DNA of 64,000 bases from Glaciihabitans arcticus. GTDB taxonomy: Bacteria > Actinomycetota > Actinomycetes > Actinomycetales > Microbacteriaceae. This document shows, in pieces, positions 32,974-42,044 of the stretch (positions are counted from its first letter, which is position 1; each line of letters begins with the position of its first letter). The stretch covers positions 2,232,001-2,296,000 of the forward strand of contig NZ_SISG01000001.1 in assembly GCF_004310685.1 (NCBI RefSeq), written 5' to 3'. The position numbers and the translations under genes are program-made. The notes beneath the pieces were generated by a model. The model ran no database searches, was not told where the DNA came from, and worked only from the letters and a program-made list of their open reading frames with translations.

Positions 32974-33582
32974 ATGACCGCTCTCGAGGTAGCCGACTGG
33001 CGACGCCAGGTGTTCGCGATGTACGCCCAGGTGCGGGAGGCGACCGACCTCTACGCCGCGCACGACCTGTGGCGCCGCGAACGGGACCGACTCTTTGCGA
33101 CCCACCCGTCATCCCCCCTTCTGCCGGAGGATCTGGCTGAATTCACCGGGCTGCCGGTGCGGCCCTACGATCGCGACTGGCGCTTCGAGGTCGAGTTGCA
33201 GCCGGTGGAGTCGCGGCGCATGGAGGTCGAGACGGGCACCGACGGCATCGTGCCGTTCGACCTGATCGGTGTCGTGGATGTGCCCTCGGTCGGCACCCTC
33301 GACGTCTGGCGCCTCGCATCGTACGGTGGCGGCATCTTCCTGCCGCTCAAGGATGCGCTGGCCGGCTCACCGGGCGGAACCTACGGCGGCGGGCGCTACC
33401 TGCTCGACACGGTGAAGGGCGCGGATCTCGGCGCGACCGGCAACACGCTCGTGCTCGACTTCAACTTCGCGTACAACCCGTCCTGCGCCTACGACCCCGC
33501 GTGGGCCTGCCCGCTCGCCCAGCCGGGCAACACGGTCGCGGTCGAGATCCCCGTCGGCGAGCGGTATTCCGGCGCTCACTAG
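32974..33582 (+). CDS. DUF1684 domain protein
   Basis: 202 residues with the DUF1684 signatures GGGIFLPLKDALAGS, TYGGGRYLLDTVKGAD and DFNFAYNPSCAYDPAWACPLAQPGN; the last motif carries two cysteines and the family's conserved C-terminal proline-rich end. Function not known. The start is leaderless: TAGCGT six nt before ATG 32974. It ends 12 nt before the -10 of the helicase leader. Confidence 0.92.
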   Translation: MTALEVADWRRQVFAMYAQVREATDLYAAHDLWRRERDRLFATHPSSPLLPEDLAEFTGLPVRPYDRDWRFEVELQPVESRRMEVETGTDGIVPFDLIGVVDVPSVGTLDVWRLASYGGGIFLPLKDALAGSPGGTYGGGRYLLDTVKGADLGATGNTLVLDFNFAYNPSCAYDPAWACPLAQPGNTVAVEIPVGERYSGAH

Positions 33583-33593
33583 GCCCGCTCTGC

Positions 33594-33808
33594 TAGAGTG
33601 GAACCACTTGCAAGACCATGACGGTCTTCCTGCGTCGTAGAACGCTCCCTCTTCTCGCTCGTTCCTCTGCTCCTGTGCCTTCACCCGCCAGTGCACGAAC
33701 CGGCTCGTAGATATCTTCTCCGGCGATCGATTGCGACCATCGTCGCTCTCGCCACCAGTACGGATCGAATGGTCCGTGCACTGATGCCCGAAAGGCACCA
33801 CCCCTTTA
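33594..33808 (+). promoter_or_regulatory. Promoter and folded 5' leader of the DEAD-box helicase
   Basis: TAGAGT (33594-33599) is a -10, which would start RNA near 33606 and give a leader of about 200 nt. The leader folds extensively by inspection. Hairpin A: AAGACC/GGTCTT (33612-33617, 33623-33628). Long-range helix B: CAGTGCACGAACC with GGTCCGTGCACTG (33689-33701, 33771-33783), 12 of 13 pairs. Inside B, GGCGA/TCGCC (33722-33726, 33749-33753) encloses GCGAC/GTCGC (33733-33737, 33742-33746). A last hairpin TGCC/GGCA (33785-33797) precedes the ATG, with no normal ribosome-binding site. This is a strong candidate for a cis-acting RNA. Confidence 0.75.
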
Positions 33809-35272
33809 ATGACTGACATCTCATTCGGCGCGCTCGGCGTGCCCGCACCCCTCGTCGCGAAGCTCACCGAGCTCGGCAAGACCGAGGCGTTCCCGATCCA
33901 GGTCGACACACTGGCCGACACCATGAGTGGTCGCGACGTGCTCGGACGCGGCAAGACCGGCTCCGGCAAGACCCTCGCCTTCTCCATCCCGCTCGTCACC
34001 CGCCTCGGCGGCAAGCTCGCCGGTGGCAACCGCCGCCCGGGCCGCCCGCTCGCGCTGGTGCTCGCACCGACCCGTGAGCTGGCCACCCAGATCTCCGCCG
34101 TCATCGAGCCGCTCGCCGAGGTCTACGGCCTCAAGAGCACCACGATCTTCGGCGGCGTCTCGCAGCAGCGCCAGGTCGCGGCCCTCAAGGCCGGTGTCGA
34201 CATCGTCGTCGCCTGCCCCGGCCGCCTCGAAGACCTCATGAAGCAGGGCTTCGTCTCCCTCGACGCCGTCGAGATCACCGTGCTCGATGAGGCCGACCAC
34301 ATGGCCGACCTCGGCTTCCTGCCCGTCGTCACCAAGATCATGGACAAGACCCCGCAGTCCGGCCAGCGCCTGCTCTTCAGCGCAACGCTCGACAACGGAG
34401 TGGACAAGCTCGTCAAGCGCTTCCTCCACAACGAGGTGCTGCACTCGGTCGACGAGGCCACCTCACACGTCTCCGCCATGACCCACCACGTCTTCGAGGT
34501 GCCGTCGGTGAACGAGAAGAACGAGCTCATCCGCAAGCTCGCCTCGGGCACGGGTCGCCGCATCCTCTTCATGCGTACGAAGCACCACGCCAAGAAGCTG
34601 GCGCGCCAGCTGACCGACGCGGGCATCCCCTCGGTCGACCTGCACGGCAACCTCTCGCAGCCCGCGCGTGACCGCAACCTCGCGGCCTTCGCCTCGGGTG
34701 AGGTTCGCGTTCTCGTCGCTACCGACGTCGCAGCCCGCGGCGTGCACGTGGACGACATCGAGCTCGTGATCCACGTCGACCCGCCCATGGAGCACAAGGC
34801 CTACCTGCACCGCTCGGGCCGCACCGCCCGCGCCGGCAAGGAAGGCGAGGTCGTCACCCTCGTTCTCCCCGAGCAGCGTCGCGACACCGCAGCGCTCCTG
34901 CGCAAGGCGGCCATCACGGTCACCCCGCAGCAGGTCACCGCATCCTCGCCCGCCGTCGACAAGCTCGTCGGCGACGTGGCTGCCTACGTCACCCCCGCAC
35001 CCCGCGCTGCCGAGCAGCCGCGCGGACAGTCGCAGGGTGGACGCTCGCAGGGCGCCAACGCCCAGCGCAAGCGCGCCAACCGCGACGGCCAGCCGGCACG
35101 CACCGACCGCTCGGGTCGCCCCGCAGCCGAGGGCGGCGGACGCCAGCAGCGCAGCTCGCAGCAGCGCGCGGCAGGCTCCGGCCAGGCGTCGAGCGGCGGC
35201 CTCAAGGTCGGCGGACTCGTCGGCATGAGCCAGGGCGGCGGCGCTGGACGTCGTCGCAGCGGCGGCCGCTAG
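33809..35272 (+). CDS. DEAD-box ATP-dependent RNA helicase
   Basis: 487 residues. The Q-motif (TEAFPIQ), Walker A variant GRGKTGSGKT, PTRELA, DEAD box (VLDEADHMADLGF), SAT (FSATLD) and HRSGRTARAG define the family; it is closest in form to RhlE/DeaD. The C-terminal 100 residues are disordered and rich in Arg, Gly, Gln and Ser, an RNA-binding tail. Such helicases remodel mRNA and ribosome precursors, often under cold stress, and can bind their own leader. The unusual folded leader suggests autoregulation. A hairpin at 35299-35334 ends the transcript. Confidence 0.95.
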   Translation: MTDISFGALGVPAPLVAKLTELGKTEAFPIQVDTLADTMSGRDVLGRGKTGSGKTLAFSIPLVTRLGGKLAGGNRRPGRPLALVLAPTRELATQISAVIEPLAEVYGLKSTTIFGGVSQQRQVAALKAGVDIVVACPGRLEDLMKQGFVSLDAVEITVLDEADHMADLGFLPVVTKIMDKTPQSGQRLLFSATLDNGVDKLVKRFLHNEVLHSVDEATSHVSAMTHHVFEVPSVNEKNELIRKLASGTGRRILFMRTKHHAKKLARQLTDAGIPSVDLHGNLSQPARDRNLAAFASGEVRVLVATDVAARGVHVDDIELVIHVDPPMEHKAYLHRSGRTARAGKEGEVVTLVLPEQRRDTAALLRKAAITVTPQQVTASSPAVDKLVGDVAAYVTPAPRAAEQPRGQSQGGRSQGANAQRKRANRDGQPARTDRSGRPAAEGGGRQQRSSQQRAAGSGQASSGGLKVGGLVGMSQGGGAGRRRSGGR

Positions 35273-35367: not shown

Positions 35368-35853
35368 ATGAGCCGCGTCATCCGCCCCGCTGAGATTCGG
35401 GATGCCCCAGCGCTCGGCCGCGTGCACGTCGAGTGTTGGCGCGAATCGTACGGGCACTTCCTCAGCCCCGGGTTTCTGGCCGAACTCGACCCGGTCGCAC
35501 GCGGCGAGCGTTGGATCCGCACCCTGGGGGAGCCCCGCGCCGACGACAGGGTCGCCGTGCTCGAGGTCGACGGCGAGCTGCGCGGCTTCGCGATGAGCGG
35601 CGCCACCGTCGACGAGGATGCCCCGCGCGCCCACCAAGTGTACGCGATCTACCAGTACGCGACCGAGCACGGATCCGGTTCGGGCGCCGAGCTGCTCGAC
35701 GCCGTGATCGGCGATGAGCCCGCCTCGCTCTGGGTCGCGGAGCTCAACCCGCGGGCCCACAGCTTCTACCGCCGCAACGGCTTCGACTTCGACGGCACCC
35801 GCAAGGTCGAGCCCTCCTGGGAAGACCTCGTCGAGCTCCGCATGATCCGCTGA
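35368..35853 (+). CDS. GNAT-family N-acetyltransferase
   Basis: 161 residues. IRPAEIRDAPALGRVHVECWRESY is the typical N-terminal GNAT pattern; the acyl-CoA loop is present in reduced form (TEHGSGSGAELLDAV), followed by WVAELNPRAHSFYRRNGF, the usual motif B. Substrate unknown. TACCGT ends five nt before ATG 35368, so the mRNA is probably leaderless. The neighbour at 35918 is a distant paralog with the same CWRE(S/L)Y element. Confidence 0.88.
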   Translation: MSRVIRPAEIRDAPALGRVHVECWRESYGHFLSPGFLAELDPVARGERWIRTLGEPRADDRVAVLEVDGELRGFAMSGATVDEDAPRAHQVYAIYQYATEHGSGSGAELLDAVIGDEPASLWVAELNPRAHSFYRRNGFDFDGTRKVEPSWEDLVELRMIR

Positions 35854-35917
35854 CGGGCGCCTCGCCCACCAGTTCAGGGGGGTTCGCGGCGGAGGTCGGG
35901 ACTATACGATGAAGCGC

Positions 35918-36394
35918 ATGGCAGCTGAGATCCGTCGTGCAGAACCCGCAGACGTCGAGACGCTCGGCGCACTCCACTCGGGATGCTGGCGCGAGCTGTA
36001 TCCCACGGTCCTTCCCGCAGCCGTGCTCGACGAGCTGAGCCCCGCCATGATGTCGGGACTGTGGGCCAAGTTCGTCGCCCGCGGCGGAGCCTACGAGCAG
36101 TACGTGGCCGAGGTGGATGGCGCGGTCGTGGCCTTCGCCGGTATCGGGCCCGGTCGCGAGCCCGGATACGAGGAGGCTGTCGAGCTGTACTTCCTCTACG
36201 TGCATCCCGAATATCGTCGCAAGGGCATCGCCCGCCAGCTGCTCAAGACCGTGCAGGCGCACTACACCTGGCTGTGGGCCGGCAATCGCCCGGCGCAGCA
36301 GTTCTACAAGAAGGCGAAGTTCTACCCCGACAGCGTCGCCCGCGAGGGCAGCCTGTTCGGCGCACCGCTCGAAGAGGAACGCTTCAGCGGATAG
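35918..36394 (+). CDS. GNAT-family N-acetyltransferase, paralog
   Basis: 158 residues from ATG 35918; an ATG three codons earlier (35909) directly follows the -10 (TATACG) and would sit before the transcription start. Motifs: IRRAEPADVETLGALHSGCWREL, VHPEYRRKGIARQLLKTVQ (acetyl-CoA loop), WAGNRPAQQFYKKAKFYP. The CWRE element shared with the preceding gene suggests an old tandem duplication. Substrate unknown. Confidence 0.88.
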   Translation: MAAEIRRAEPADVETLGALHSGCWRELYPTVLPAAVLDELSPAMMSGLWAKFVARGGAYEQYVAEVDGAVVAFAGIGPGREPGYEEAVELYFLYVHPEYRRKGIARQLLKTVQAHYTWLWAGNRPAQQFYKKAKFYPDSVAREGSLFGAPLEEERFSG

Positions 36395-37385: not shown

Positions 37386-40300
37386 ATGGCCACCGTGCTC
37401 GACCGATTCTCTCCCGCGACGCGTGAGTGGTTTCTCGGCGCGTTCCCGGCACCGACCGCCGCGCAGCTCGGCGCGTGGGAGGCGGTGTCCTCCGGCTCGC
37501 ACGCCCTCGTCGTCGCGCCGACCGGATCGGGCAAGACCCTCGCGGCCTTTCTCTGGGCCATCGATCGACTGGCGTCGTCGCCCCCGCCCGAGAACGTGAT
37601 GCATCGCACGCGCGTGCTCTACATCTCCCCCCTCAAGGCTCTCGGCGTCGACGTCGAGCGCAACCTGCGCGCCCCGCTCGTCGGGGTGACCCAGACCGCC
37701 GCGCGGCTGGGCGTGCCTGCGCCTCCCGTAACGGTGGGGGTGCGATCCGGTGACACCACGACGCAAGACAGAAGGATGCTCGCGCGCACGCCCCCCGACA
37801 TCCTGATCACCACGCCCGAGTCGCTGTACCTCATGCTCACGAGCGCCGCAAAAGAGACCCTGCTCGGCGTCGAGACGATCATCGTCGACGAGATCCACGC
37901 CGTTGCCGCGACCAAGCGCGGCAGCCACCTCGCCCTCTCGCTCGAGCGGCTCGACGCCATGCTTCCGAAGCCGGCCCAGCGCATCGGTCTCTCGGCGACC
38001 GTGCGACCCATCGAGGAGGTCGCGCGCTTCCTCGGCGGCTCATCCCCGGTGAAGATCGTCGCGCCGCCCGCGCAGAAGACGTTCGACCTGCGGGTCGTCG
38101 TCCCGGTCGATGACATGACCGAGCTCGGCACGACCGCGGTGCTCGAGGGGTCATCCGCGGGCAATGCGCCCCAAGGATCGATCTGGCCTCACGTCGAGGA
38201 GAGCATCGTCGACCTGATCCTCGAGCACACATCCACGATCGTGTTCGCGAACTCTCGGCGGCTGGCCGAGCGGCTGACGGCGCGGCTGAATGAGATTTAT
38301 GCGGAGCGCGCCTCCGATCCCGAAAACACGCTCGAGGTTCCCTCCCTCGCAGGCTCGGTCGGCGCTGGGGTCGCGGCATCGCTGCGCGCTGCTCCTAGCT
38401 CCACCGCGCTCGCGGAGCGAGCTACTCAATCAGCGAAACTTCCAGCCCAGATGATGGCGCAGGCCGGCTCCACCTCCGGCGCCCCGCCCCTCCTCGCCCG
38501 CGCGCACCACGGCTCCGTGTCGAAGGAGCAGCGGGCCGACATCGAAGACGACCTCAAGAGCGGGCGGTTGCGGTGTGTGGTGGCGACGTCATCCCTCGAA
38601 CTGGGAATCGACATGGGTGCCGTCGATCTTGTGGTGCAGGTCGAATCTCCACCGAGTGTCGCGAGCGGGCTGCAGCGGGTCGGTCGCGCCGGGCACCAGG
38701 TCGGTGAGGTCTCGCGCGGGGTGCTGTTCCCCAAGCACCGGGCTGACCTCATTCACACCGCGGTCGCAACGGAGCGCATGCTGAGCGGCCAGATCGAGTC
38801 GATCTCGGTGCCCGCAAACCCGCTCGACGTGCTCGCCCAGCAGACCGTCGCCGCCGTCGCGCTCGAAGGGCTCGGTGTGGACGAGTGGTACGAGCTCGTG
38901 CGCCGCAGCGCCCCGTTCGCGACCCTGCCGTACAGCGCGTACACCGCAACGCTGGACCTGCTCGCCGGCCTCTACCCGAGCGACGAGTTCGCCGAACTGC
39001 GGCCCCGCATCATCTGGGATCGCGTCGCCAACACCATCACCGGCCGGCCCGGAGCGCAGCGCCTCGCGGTGACGAGCGGCGGCACCATCCCGGATCGCGG
39101 CCTGTTCGGGGTGTTCATGGTGGGCACCGAGTCCGCCACCACCGGCGGACGCCGCGTCGGCGAGCTCGACGAGGAGATGGTCTACGAGTCGCGCGTCGGC
39201 GACATCTTCGCGCTCGGCGCGACGAGCTGGCGCATTGAGGACATCACCCACGACCGGGTGCTCGTGAGCCCCGCCTTCGGGCAGCCCGGCAAGGTGCCGT
39301 TCTGGAAGGGCGACGGCCTCGGCCGCCCCTACGAACTCGGCGCCGCGATCGGCGCCTTCACGCGCGATGTCGCGACCGGCACCAGCGTCGAATCCCGGGC
39401 GCGACTGGCCGAGGTGGGCCTCGACGAGCGCGCCGTCAACAACCTCGTGGCCTTCGTCGGCGAACAGCAGGCGGCGACCGGGCACGTGCCGACCGACACG
39501 ACTCTCGTCGTCGAACGGTTTCGGGATGAGCTCGGCGACTGGCGCGTGATCCTGCACTCCCCGTACGGCATGCAGGTGCACGCCCCGTGGGCTCTCGCCG
39601 TGGGTGCGCGGGTGCGCGAGCGCCTCGGCATGGATGGCGCTGCCATGGCCAGCGACGACGGCGTCATCGTGCGCATCCCCGACACCGATGCCGAGCCTCC
39701 GGGCGCGGAGCTGTTCGTGTTCGAGCCCGGCGAGCTGGAGGACCTGGTCACGACCGAGGTCGGCGGGTCCGCTCTGTTCGCCTCCCGTTTCCGCGAGTGC
39801 GCAGCCCGGGCACTGCTGCTGCCGCGCTACAACCCGGGCAAGCGCTCCCCGCTCTGGCAGCAGCGGCAGCGTGCCTCCCAGTTGCTGGATGTCGCACGCA
39901 AGTTCCCGAGCTTCCCGATCGTGCTCGAGACGATCCGCGAGGTGCTGCAGGACGTCTACGATCTGCCCGCACTGACCCGACTGTCGGCGGATATCGCGAG
40001 CCGTCGCATCCGGATCGTAGAAACCGAGACCGAGCTGCCCTCGCCCTTCGCGCGCTCCCTGCTGTTCGGTTACGTTGCCGCCTTTATGTACGAGGGCGAC
40101 TCGCCGCTCGCCGAGCGCCGGGCCGCCGCTCTCTCGCTGGACTCCGGGCTGCTCGCCGAACTGCTCGGTCGCGCGGAGCTGCGCGAGCTGCTCGACCCGA
40201 AGGTGCTCGAGCAGACCGAGCTCGAGCTGCAGCGCCTCGCTCCCGACCGCCGCGCCAAGGGGGTTGAGGGCATCGTTGATCTCGTGCGTGTGCTCGGGCC

Positions 40301-42044
40301 GCTGTCGGTGCAGGAGATCGACGAGAGGTTGGTGCCGGATCTCGATACGGCCGCGGGCGGCCTACTCGATCAACTCGCACAGCTGGCCGGCGCCAACCGG
40401 GTGCTGCGGGTGACCATCGCCGGCACCGAGCGCTGGGCCGCGATCGAGGACTCGGCGCGGCTGCGCGACGCGCTCGGCGTTCCGCTGCCGATCGGCGTTC
40501 CCGCGGCGTTCATCGAGCCGGTGCCCGACCCGCTCGGCGACCTCGTCTCCCGCTACTCCCGCACCCACGGCCCGTTCGCCGCGCAGGAGGTCGCCACCCG
40601 CCTGGGTCTCGGCGTCGCCGTGGTGCTCGACGCATTGCGACGGCTCGGCGCCGATCGCCGAGTGGTCGAGGGCGAGTTCCGCCCGGGCGCAGCCGGCAGC
40701 GAGTGGGTCGACGCCGAGGTACTGCGCCGCCTGCGTTCCCGATCCCTCGCTGCCCTGCGCCACGAGGTCGAGCCGGTCGACGCCCCCACGCTCGCGCGCT
40801 TCCTGCCGGCCTGGCAGAACGTGGGATCCAAGCTGCGTGGTATCGACGGTCTCGCCCAGGTCATCGACCAGCTTTCCGGTGTCTCCCTGCCCGCCTCCGC
40901 GTGGGAGTCGCTTGTGCTGCCCGCCCGCCTGCGCGACTACACCCCCGCCTGGCTCGACGAACTGACCCTGTCGGGCGAGGTGGTCTGGGCCGGTGCCGGC
41001 GTGCTGCCCGGCAGCGACGGCTGGGTCTCCCTGCAGTTGGCGGATGCCGCTCCCCTCACGCTCCCTTCCCCTCTCGATCGTGACGCCGCAAGCGGCGACC
41101 TCACCGAGCTGGAGCGCGGCGTGCTGAGCGCCCTGAGCGGAGGGGGTGCGTACTTCTTCCGCCAGCTGCAGTCCACTCTCGCCACCGACGGCACACCTCC
41201 CCTGGACCGCGACCTGCAGCTCGCCCTCTGGAACCTCGTCTGGGCGGGCTGGATCACCAACGACACCCTGGCTCCGCTGCGATCCTTCCTCGGCGGCAAG
41301 GCACCGGCCGCCTCGAGGCCCCGATCCGCGCAGCGCAGCCGCGCCTACCGGCCACGCGTCTCGACGGCGGTTGCGCAATCCGGGCTGCCGGTCGTGAGCG
41401 GACGCTGGTCGCTGCTTCCCGACGCCGTGAGCGATCCGACCGTGCGCGCCAAGGCGATGGGAGAGCTGCTGCTCGAGCGGCACGGGGTCGTGACCCGGGG
41501 GTCGGTCGTGAGCGAGGGCATCCGGGGCGGCTTTGCGCTTGCCTACAAGGTGCTCAGCGGCTTCGAGGAGTCGGGCAAGGCGCGTCGCGGCTACTTCGTC
41601 GAGGGGCTCGGGGCCGCGCAGTTCGCGACCGGGCCGACCGTCGACCGGCTGCGCAGTTTCGGCCGCGCACCCGGCGAGACCGAGGAGCCGACAGTGGTGA
41701 CGCTCGCTGCGACCGACCCGGCCAACCCCTATGGCGCCGCGCTGCCCTGGCCGCAGGGCGAGGGGCACCGGCCGGGCCGCAAGGCGGGTGCGATCGTGGT
41801 TCTCGTCGACGGGCAGCTGGTGCTCTACGTCGAGCGCGGCGGCAAGACCGTGCTCACCTTCGGCTCGACCGAGGACCAGCTCGACCCCGCCGCCGTCGCC
41901 CTCGCCGAGGTGGTGCGCGGCCGCATCGGCAAGCTCAGCATCGAGAAGGTCGACGGCGAGTTCTCCATCGGCACCCCACTCGGCGACTCGCTGCAGCGCG
42001 CCGGCTTCGGCCCGAATCCCAGCGGCCTGCGACTGAGGGCCTGA
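37386..42044 (+). CDS. lhr: Lhr-family superfamily 2 DNA helicase
   Basis: 1552 residues, full length for actinobacterial Lhr. Walker A APTGSGKT (44-51), DEIH box (about 167-170), SATVRP, ATSSLELGIDMG and RVGRAGHQ motifs, then the winged-helix domain and the long Lhr-specific C-terminal region. Lhr unwinds DNA/RNA hybrids and takes part in repair of DNA crosslinks. The start ATG 37386 is backed by a TATACC box. Linker residues of about 315-360 are longer than in mycobacterial Lhr and contain a palindrome (38396-38450). The Nei/Fpg glycosylase gene follows two bases after its stop. Confidence 0.95.
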   Translation: MATVLDRFSPATREWFLGAFPAPTAAQLGAWEAVSSGSHALVVAPTGSGKTLAAFLWAIDRLASSPPPENVMHRTRVLYISPLKALGVDVERNLRAPLVGVTQTAARLGVPAPPVTVGVRSGDTTTQDRRMLARTPPDILITTPESLYLMLTSAAKETLLGVETIIVDEIHAVAATKRGSHLALSLERLDAMLPKPAQRIGLSATVRPIEEVARFLGGSSPVKIVAPPAQKTFDLRVVVPVDDMTELGTTAVLEGSSAGNAPQGSIWPHVEESIVDLILEHTSTIVFANSRRLAERLTARLNEIYAERASDPENTLEVPSLAGSVGAGVAASLRAAPSSTALAERATQSAKLPAQMMAQAGSTSGAPPLLARAHHGSVSKEQRADIEDDLKSGRLRCVVATSSLELGIDMGAVDLVVQVESPPSVASGLQRVGRAGHQVGEVSRGVLFPKHRADLIHTAVATERMLSGQIESISVPANPLDVLAQQTVAAVALEGLGVDEWYELVRRSAPFATLPYSAYTATLDLLAGLYPSDEFAELRPRIIWDRVANTITGRPGAQRLAVTSGGTIPDRGLFGVFMVGTESATTGGRRVGELDEEMVYESRVGDIFALGATSWRIEDITHDRVLVSPAFGQPGKVPFWKGDGLGRPYELGAAIGAFTRDVATGTSVESRARLAEVGLDERAVNNLVAFVGEQQAATGHVPTDTTLVVERFRDELGDWRVILHSPYGMQVHAPWALAVGARVRERLGMDGAAMASDDGVIVRIPDTDAEPPGAELFVFEPGELEDLVTTEVGGSALFASRFRECAARALLLPRYNPGKRSPLWQQRQRASQLLDVARKFPSFPIVLETIREVLQDVYDLPALTRLSADIASRRIRIVETETELPSPFARSLLFGYVAAFMYEGDSPLAERRAAALSLDSGLLAELLGRAELRELLDPKVLEQTELELQRLAPDRRAKGVEGIVDLVRVLGPLSVQEIDERLVPDLDTAAGGLLDQLAQLAGANRVLRVTIAGTERWAAIEDSARLRDALGVPLPIGVPAAFIEPVPDPLGDLVSRYSRTHGPFAAQEVATRLGLGVAVVLDALRRLGADRRVVEGEFRPGAAGSEWVDAEVLRRLRSRSLAALRHEVEPVDAPTLARFLPAWQNVGSKLRGIDGLAQVIDQLSGVSLPASAWESLVLPARLRDYTPAWLDELTLSGEVVWAGAGVLPGSDGWVSLQLADAAPLTLPSPLDRDAASGDLTELERGVLSALSGGGAYFFRQLQSTLATDGTPPLDRDLQLALWNLVWAGWITNDTLAPLRSFLGGKAPAASRPRSAQRSRAYRPRVSTAVAQSGLPVVSGRWSLLPDAVSDPTVRAKAMGELLLERHGVVTRGSVVSEGIRGGFALAYKVLSGFEESGKARRGYFVEGLGAAQFATGPTVDRLRSFGRAPGETEEPTVVTLAATDPANPYGAALPWPQGEGHRPGRKAGAIVVLVDGQLVLYVERGGKTVLTFGSTEDQLDPAAVALAEVVRGRIGKLSIEKVDGEFSIGTPLGDSLQRAGFGPNPSGLRLRA
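38396..38450 (+). repeat. REP-like palindrome inside lhr
   Basis: TAGCTC (38396-38401) and GAGCTA (38419-38424) enclose GCTC GCG GAGC, followed by CTACTCAATCAGCG. The composition (in-frame codons such as CTACTCAATCA) differs from the surrounding lhr DNA and the protein here has extra residues relative to the mycobacterial linker. I recall similar palindromes followed by a CTACTCAA-type tail as dispersed repeats in Microbacteriaceae, but did not search for them. Confidence 0.5.

Follow-up and report, generated by a model that had tools for sequence, protein, structure and literature searches.

A conserved and almost certainly cis-regulatory leader RNA upstream of a DEAD-box RNA helicase gene in actinomycetes

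Described leader RNAs and the helicase locus

In Escherichia coli, the degradosome genes rne and pnp are controlled through their own structured 5' leaders, and the Actino-pnp motif precedes the gene for PNPase, which also belongs to RNA metabolism. The leader reported here, from a 64,000-nt stretch of the Glaciihabitans arcticus genome (the window, i.e., the whole stretch of DNA that was analyzed; part of a 3.17 Mb assembly, G000:C1:2232001-2296000), is set beside the E. coli leaders for a similar idea of self-control and not by sequence comparison. Actino-pnp (RF01688) is likewise an actinobacterial cis-regulatory RNA, according to the consulted part of its description (PMC2864571), but its covariance model has no match at the gathering threshold in the window or in 16 relatives. 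The Synechocystis gene crhR also encodes an RNA helicase, with expression that responds to cold, and is subject to temperature-dependent autoregulation by the helicase itself, as stated in the part of the report consulted (PMC3485376); that bacterium, however, is unrelated, the likeness does not extend to a comparison of RNA elements, and autoregulation of the present gene is only inferred.

The first-pass annotation of this DNA had named no RNA family for the leader, and Rfam 15 agrees. At gathering thresholds it has no match in the window or in the 16 relatives, and at E ≤ 5 the interval 33500–33900 yields only chance-level similarities to STnc250 (14.4 bits, threshold 42) and Flavi_ISFV_xrRNA (13.8 bits, threshold 50). 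No description of the helicase leader was found in the literature searched, in which a 2017 list of 224 candidate RNAs was only assumed to be covered by Rfam. The family appears to be new, while its kind, the structured leader of an RNA-metabolism gene (e.g., Actino-pnp), is already known. It offers a defined, testable RNA element for helicase-level setting and cold sensing in actinobacteria, including mycobacteria; it can be searched for with the covariance model, and cold-shock data published for mycobacteria, in the parts consulted, point to a probable orthologue of the gene.

The leader extends from about 33606 to 33808 as the 5' untranslated part of the helicase mRNA. The encoded helicase has a Gly/Arg/Gln-rich tail, as read by eye, and matches the NCBIfam models RhlE2, DbpA, RhlE, and CshA, in each case under the model's own cutoff. 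Its closest named relatives among the matches listed are from Microbacteriaceae, with Salinibacterium at 82%. A DUF1684 gene (32974–33582) ends 11 nt upstream of the -10 element of the leader promoter, and a similar gene end was seen upstream of the leader in one relative (L010). Two tandem genes of GNAT-type acetyltransferases (35368–36394), the first with an Acetyltransf_1 match barely over the cutoff, lie immediately downstream of the helicase gene, and a large helicase of the Lhr type (1552 aa, 37386–42044; four Lhr winged-helix domain matches) is encoded nearby.

Conserved elements and covariation of the leader

Downstream of a conserved -10 element, the leader comprises the P1 hairpin, a near-invariant core (GCGTCGTNGAACGC) and its pyrimidine tract, a hairpin in two tiers (B), and a hairpin (C) that holds the Shine-Dalgarno (SD) sequence (Table 1). 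The rows read show a recurring order upstream of helicases: the -10 element, ACTTG, P1, CTGCGTCGTNGAACGC, a pyrimidine tract, a GGCGA...TCGCC hairpin, a variable linker, a GAAAGG hairpin, and the start codon. The nested GGCGA/TCGCC and GCGAC/GTCGC helices and the two separate hairpins listed in the first-pass annotation (now P1 and C) are all present on reading the sequence.

Table 1. Elements of the helicase locus, in window coordinates
Element	Position	Strand	Description	Basis
-10 element	33594–33599	+	TAGAGT, leader promoter	Read in the sequence; TANNNT conserved among leaders
P1	33612–33628	+	5' hairpin; arms 33612–33617 and 33623–33628	Both-side changes at 6/6 pairs
Core	33632–33645	+	GCGTCGTAGAACGC, near-invariant; possible mini-hairpin GCGT(CGTAGA)ACGC	CGTCG invariant in A1/A2
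Pyrimidine tract	33646–33690	+	C/T-rich, G-poor, presumably single-stranded	Pyrimidine excess
Long-range helix	33689–33783	+	33689–33701 with 33771–33783; 12 Watson-Crick pairs and one A.C mismatch; local to the present genome	Hand count
Hairpin B (module B)	33722–33753	+	Two tiers: GGCGA 33722–33726/TCGCC 33749–33753 around GCGAC 33733–33737/GTCGC 33742–33746	Inner-stem covariation
Hairpin C	33785–33797	+	TGCC(CGAAA)GGCA; holds SD GAAAGG 33790–33795	Leader comparison; 16S 3' end
DEAD-box RNA helicase gene	33809–35272	+	487 aa	Pfam DEAD and Helicase_C matches

The core is the most conserved element of the leader and had gone unmentioned in the annotation. Its CGTCG is invariant in alignments A1 (n = 32) and A2 (n = 59), whose sequences were partly chosen with that motif. 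The pairs of the possible mini-hairpin hardly vary and hence are beyond the reach of covariation; some rows from Demequina and Nocardia have lost a pair. The core occurs in lineage-specific versions, namely, CGTCGTGGAACG in Mycobacterium, CGTCGATGAACG in Arthrobacter, and GCGTCGCAGATTGC in Demequina, and it may resemble a stretch of 23S rRNA (possible rRNA mimicry). A leader peptide was also considered (TTG at 33608 and ATG at 33618 open short frames here); it was rejected because, in the alignments inspected, differences in P1 length among relatives break the frame.

By predicted fold energy, the window leader does not stand out (z = -1.37; 20 of 200 shuffles equally good), so that energy alone is insufficient for the case. 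In a plain MAFFT alignment that was fitted to no structure (n = 59), all five pairs of the hairpin B inner stem change on both sides, and 98.1% of hairpin B cells are paired vs. 30–60% when the partners are slid. P1, with both-side changes throughout, has 73.9% of its cells paired in a second alignment of this kind (n = 59), and the loss of pairing is at least partly due to rows aligned out of register. RNAalifold, run unaided on 32 sequences, proposed the same helices. A covariance model (R1) was built from these 32, and among 64 distinct non-seed sequences 91.8% of cells pair vs. 30–58% for slid partners; these sequences (alignment A4) were fitted to R1 and hence lean towards the model.

We further applied a home-made tree-based test in the manner of R-scape, using the G statistic with average-product correction and 100 null sets in which the substitutions of each branch of a FastTree tree were moved to random columns. 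For the 64 non-seed sequences it yielded eight pairs with E < 0.05 among 10,153, seven of them in the model; P1 accounts for three of the eight, the inner stem of hairpin B for four, and the internal loop of the same hairpin for one. The module alignments A2 and A3 were chosen by motif expressions, so that this selection accounts in part for the unchanging core and GGCGA (the outer stem of hairpin B is almost invariant in rows picked with GGCGA), but not for the covariation of P1 and the inner stem. The leaders of orthologous helicases thus carry compensatory changes in P1 and the hairpin B inner stem, which was the check proposed with the first-pass annotation and bears out its claim of a structured leader RNA in front of a DEAD-box helicase. 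On these comparisons, we consider it almost certain that the element is a conserved cis-regulatory leader RNA of actinomycetes.

The internal loop of hairpin B shows a coupled change at A4 columns 202 and 249–250, GGCGAACGGAT..CTTCGCC vs. GGCGATCGATT..TCTCGCC, which suggests either further pairs or a protein-recognition motif; additional pairs at columns 205–250 and 206–249 are hinted at in the same alignment.

The annotation had given prominence to a 13-base long-range pairing. This helix is present in the window, with one mismatch, but it is not conserved. The duplex between the two linkers has a mean z of -0.66 over 86 leaders, only 12% of which fall below -2, while the present genome scores -3.07; these 86 are the leaders of sufficient length among 89 with a recognized core and hairpin B, a set with seven doubtful core forms and with wrong anchoring of L011 and L135. 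The helix is therefore ruled out as a family feature. The second linker, with its last 20 nt omitted, folds on itself in many relatives (mean z = -2.31; 63% below -2).

Promoter position, distribution, and the start-codon hairpin

Of 116 leaders, 95 have a TANNNT beginning 34–58 nt upstream of the core, compared with 17 that have one in a control window 86–110 nt upstream, which is often coding sequence; at least one row of this count (L135) is anchored on a wrong core. The position of the motif suggests that transcripts start at about the base of P1, i.e., probably at 33606–33608 in the window. The -10 element that had been marked on first reading is thereby supported, and its conserved location about 200 nt before the helicase ATG argues, as far as the sequence tells, against a transcription start close to the ATG.

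With the leader as blastn query, 82 of 199 genomes of the family had matches (E ≤ 0.01). The model R1 matched 156 of the 199 at E ≤ 0.001, leaving 43 without a match; the helicase itself is found at E ≤ 1e-130 in 181 of 199, and several genera of the family keep it without a leader detectable by the R1 search. In the genome of origin, R1 has a single strong match (113.7 bits; the next scores 15.9). R1 matches occur in 27 of 296 genomes of the class sample, where the helicase adjoins 24 of 28 listed matches; no helicase was seen around the remaining four, which are marginal (E from 7.7e-4 to 0.008). In the phylum sample, five of 246 genomes match, all from the same class, and one of these (G303) is a marginal non-helicase match. 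The helicase is next door at all 28 further family loci fetched (L148–L175), and all strong matches with checked surroundings precede one orthologous DEAD-box helicase. The leader is thus consistently placed between the promoter and the start codon of a single orthologue group.

Among the loci compared, L004–L032 were identified through leader similarity and L033–L112 through the helicase, whose N-terminus, used in a scan of named genomes, gave at least 80 loci. As a duplicate of L009, L042 was omitted from the R1 searches of helicase-selected loci. Among L033–L104 (n = 71), 62 match R1 at E ≤ 0.01 (a number that includes 16 from the seed), and four of the eight loci L105–L112 match at E ≤ 1e-4. 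Loci without a match are L075 (cut short), L081, L086, L089, L092, L104, L108, L109, and L110, together with four mycobacterial helicase loci (L078, L082, L084, L107). Non-seed Demequina leaders (L056, L061, L070) score 80–85 bits, and those of the Arthrobacter type only 22–39 bits. By the R1 search, the leader occurs in mycobacteria and other actinomycetes. Ten genomes surveyed for related helicases (E ≤ 1e-60) each have one member at 71–100% identity, representing the leader-bearing group, and one to three other DEAD-box members at 36–53%. We saw no sign of a larger regulon in the genome of origin, where the core pattern with one mismatch occurs 36 times vs. 28 for a reversed control and no second R1 match comes near the top score.

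At the start-codon end, GAAAGG occupies the loop and 3' arm of hairpin C, 13 nt before the ATG, and it can serve as a ribosome-binding site because the 3' end of the genome's 16S rRNA contains the complementary ...CACCTCCTTTC. The final hairpin before the ATG noted in the annotation stands, but its statement that the ATG lacks a normal ribosome-binding site does not. After removal of loci with less than 60% identity or lacking the N-terminus, 169 leaders (139 distinct) were retained; within 45 nt of the start, the 139 contain GAAAGG (76), GAAAGA (22), GAAAG (12), AAAGG (2), or none of these (27).

Hairpin C is frequent and variable. Its GCCNGAAAGGC form is present in 49 of the 66 leaders folded together with the gene start, in which GAAA is predicted to be mostly open (0.80) and the GG of the SD to be unpaired at only 0.03 on average. 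The CC-loop-GG form is missing in 61 of 139 leaders. In the 78 that have it, the fourth pair is T-A (50), another standard pair (4), G.A (15), or unpaired (9); the G.A cases read as a register effect of one more loop C. Three compensated variants were found (L063, L110, L124). In many Microbacteriaceae rows the SD can pair with a CUUUC upstream of hairpin B; this pairing was set aside, as it is absent from the window leader and from the mycobacterial rows read.

Cold response and possible modes of control

The mycobacterial orthologue of the helicase is, by elimination, probably MSMEG_1540 of Mycobacterium smegmatis: in the part of the source consulted, MSMEG_1930 is named rhlE and MSMEG_5042 deaD (PMC6299477). 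By the same reasoning, MSMEG_1930 would fall outside the leader-bearing group. Six genomes of family f10, which we take to be mycobacterial because the leader of one member (G373, locus L132) is identical to that of M. colombiense (L083), have a leader-bearing member at 71–75%, a paralogue at 41–44%, and, in three of the six, a DeaD-like protein at 36–37%. A MiaE_2 gene adjoins the 41–44% paralogue in a genome of the mycobacterial type (L195, 2941–3645) and the 40% paralogue of the window's own genome (L199, 658–1377); Rv3211, rhlE of M. tuberculosis, presumably has a ferritin-like neighbor as well.

The consulted parts of published surveys list MSMEG_1540 among genes enriched in rapid growers (PMC6985099) and report that in the cold it rises 9.71-fold at 2 h, 2.04-fold at 5 h, and 3.49-fold at 24 h (PMC10454040), and that its mRNA exceeds expectation on knockdown of RNase E (rne), an effect read by the authors as transcriptional (PMC10641625). 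The cold induction and the RNase E effect make the thermosensing or helicase response suggested at first reading plausible. As MSMEG_1930 is also up in the cold (5.01 and 2.52; PMC10454040, same part), the induction extends beyond the presumably leader-bearing gene, and this, together with the transcriptional interpretation of the RNase E effect, means that promoter control could explain both.

Comparison of the leaders and of the strong matches examined yields a promoter position, P1, the core, hairpin B, a frequent hairpin C, and one helicase orthologue group. An arrangement in which the 5' part is conserved and the output devices close to stop or start signals vary more is in keeping with a regulatory leader, which probably tunes the amount of helicase, for instance in the cold. 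In the reading that we prefer, with a probability of about 0.6 as a whole, this new cis-regulatory RNA family would keep helicase output low by default and be relieved through feedback or cold. Output would be lowered by partial burial of the SD in hairpin C and, in some Arthrobacter-type relatives, by a terminator-like hairpin in the leader; relief would come when helicase or RNA-remodeling capacity is short, as after a shift to cold. The likeliest route would be feedback, with the helicase, or a degradosome that it may serve, recognizing P1-core and/or hairpin B and then promoting termination, cleavage, or translational closure. The nature of the gene and the published expression data, in the parts consulted, make feedback in the cold the likeliest trigger; taken by itself, such control of the helicase via the leader has somewhat less than an even chance. 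Tentatively, P1, the core, and hairpin B could act as a sensor of RNA-unwinding capacity read by the helicase or degradosome, with lineages exchanging the output among an SD hairpin, a Rho tract, and a terminator.

Several other explanations were weighed against this feedback model. That the leader is ordinary untranslated sequence with helices due to chance or shared ancestry is scarcely credible: its ordinary fold energy would allow it, but the both-side changes far exceed those in shuffles and slides, most of the significant pairs under the tree-based null belong to the model, and conservation extends across families. A compact conserved core with covarying helices might equally belong to a metabolite riboswitch controlling the helicase; this is very unlikely given a single kind of downstream gene in the loci examined, where the four non-helicase matches are marginal, and the lack of an Rfam match. 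A pure RNA thermometer, in which hairpin C and the linkers would by themselves, without a protein, make access to the SD depend on temperature, would be in line with the burial of the SD GG in a small, often conserved hairpin and with the cold induction of the probable orthologue. We consider it improbable, because the most conserved parts, the core and hairpin B, lie at a distance from the start codon and cooling is not predicted to make the SD more accessible: over the 66 folded leaders, mean predicted accessibility hardly changes between 37 and 10°C, and pairing of the window's hairpin C is predicted to tighten on cooling (from 0.62 to 0.95). The M. smegmatis induction is, moreover, seen at the mRNA level in the consulted part of PMC10454040.

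This last observation would suit a transcription attenuator, in which the core and C/U-rich tract load Rho, or a terminator acts in Arthrobacter-type leaders, so that read-through is set by the leader, with antitermination in the cold by a Csp-type or other factor. The 45-nt tract of the window leader (49% C, 13% G, 4% A) might be a site for Rho or for a cold-shock protein. Its pyrimidine excess is found on either strand of the 64-kb window only in 45-nt stretches starting at 33642–33646, and many relatives have a shorter CTYCCTCTTCTC-like tract after the core. A script count made without a shuffled control finds a hairpin with a trailing T run ahead of the core in eight of 16 leaders of the CGTCGATGA type, although one of the eight (L094) is probably just P1; in several Arthrobacter-type leaders, GATGTGC and GCACATC flank a GC-rich hairpin and T run on the 5' side of the core. 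On the other hand, only 61% of leaders have more than two C per G over the first 25 nt past the core, no terminator-like site was found on the + strand of the window leader, and only 16 T-run sites, many of them weak, were counted in 15 of 139 leaders, again without a shuffled control; a general terminator scanner did not list the Arthrobacter terminators of L080 and L091. Attenuation as the main mechanism is rather unlikely on this balance.

A minor observation concerns six of the relatives (L080, L085, L087, L091, L096, and L097), in which a terminator-like hairpin lies about 180 nt before the start codon. Their GATGTGC and GCACATC segments could form P1 around that hairpin, and the 5' arm contains an ATG a few nucleotides past the likely transcript start.
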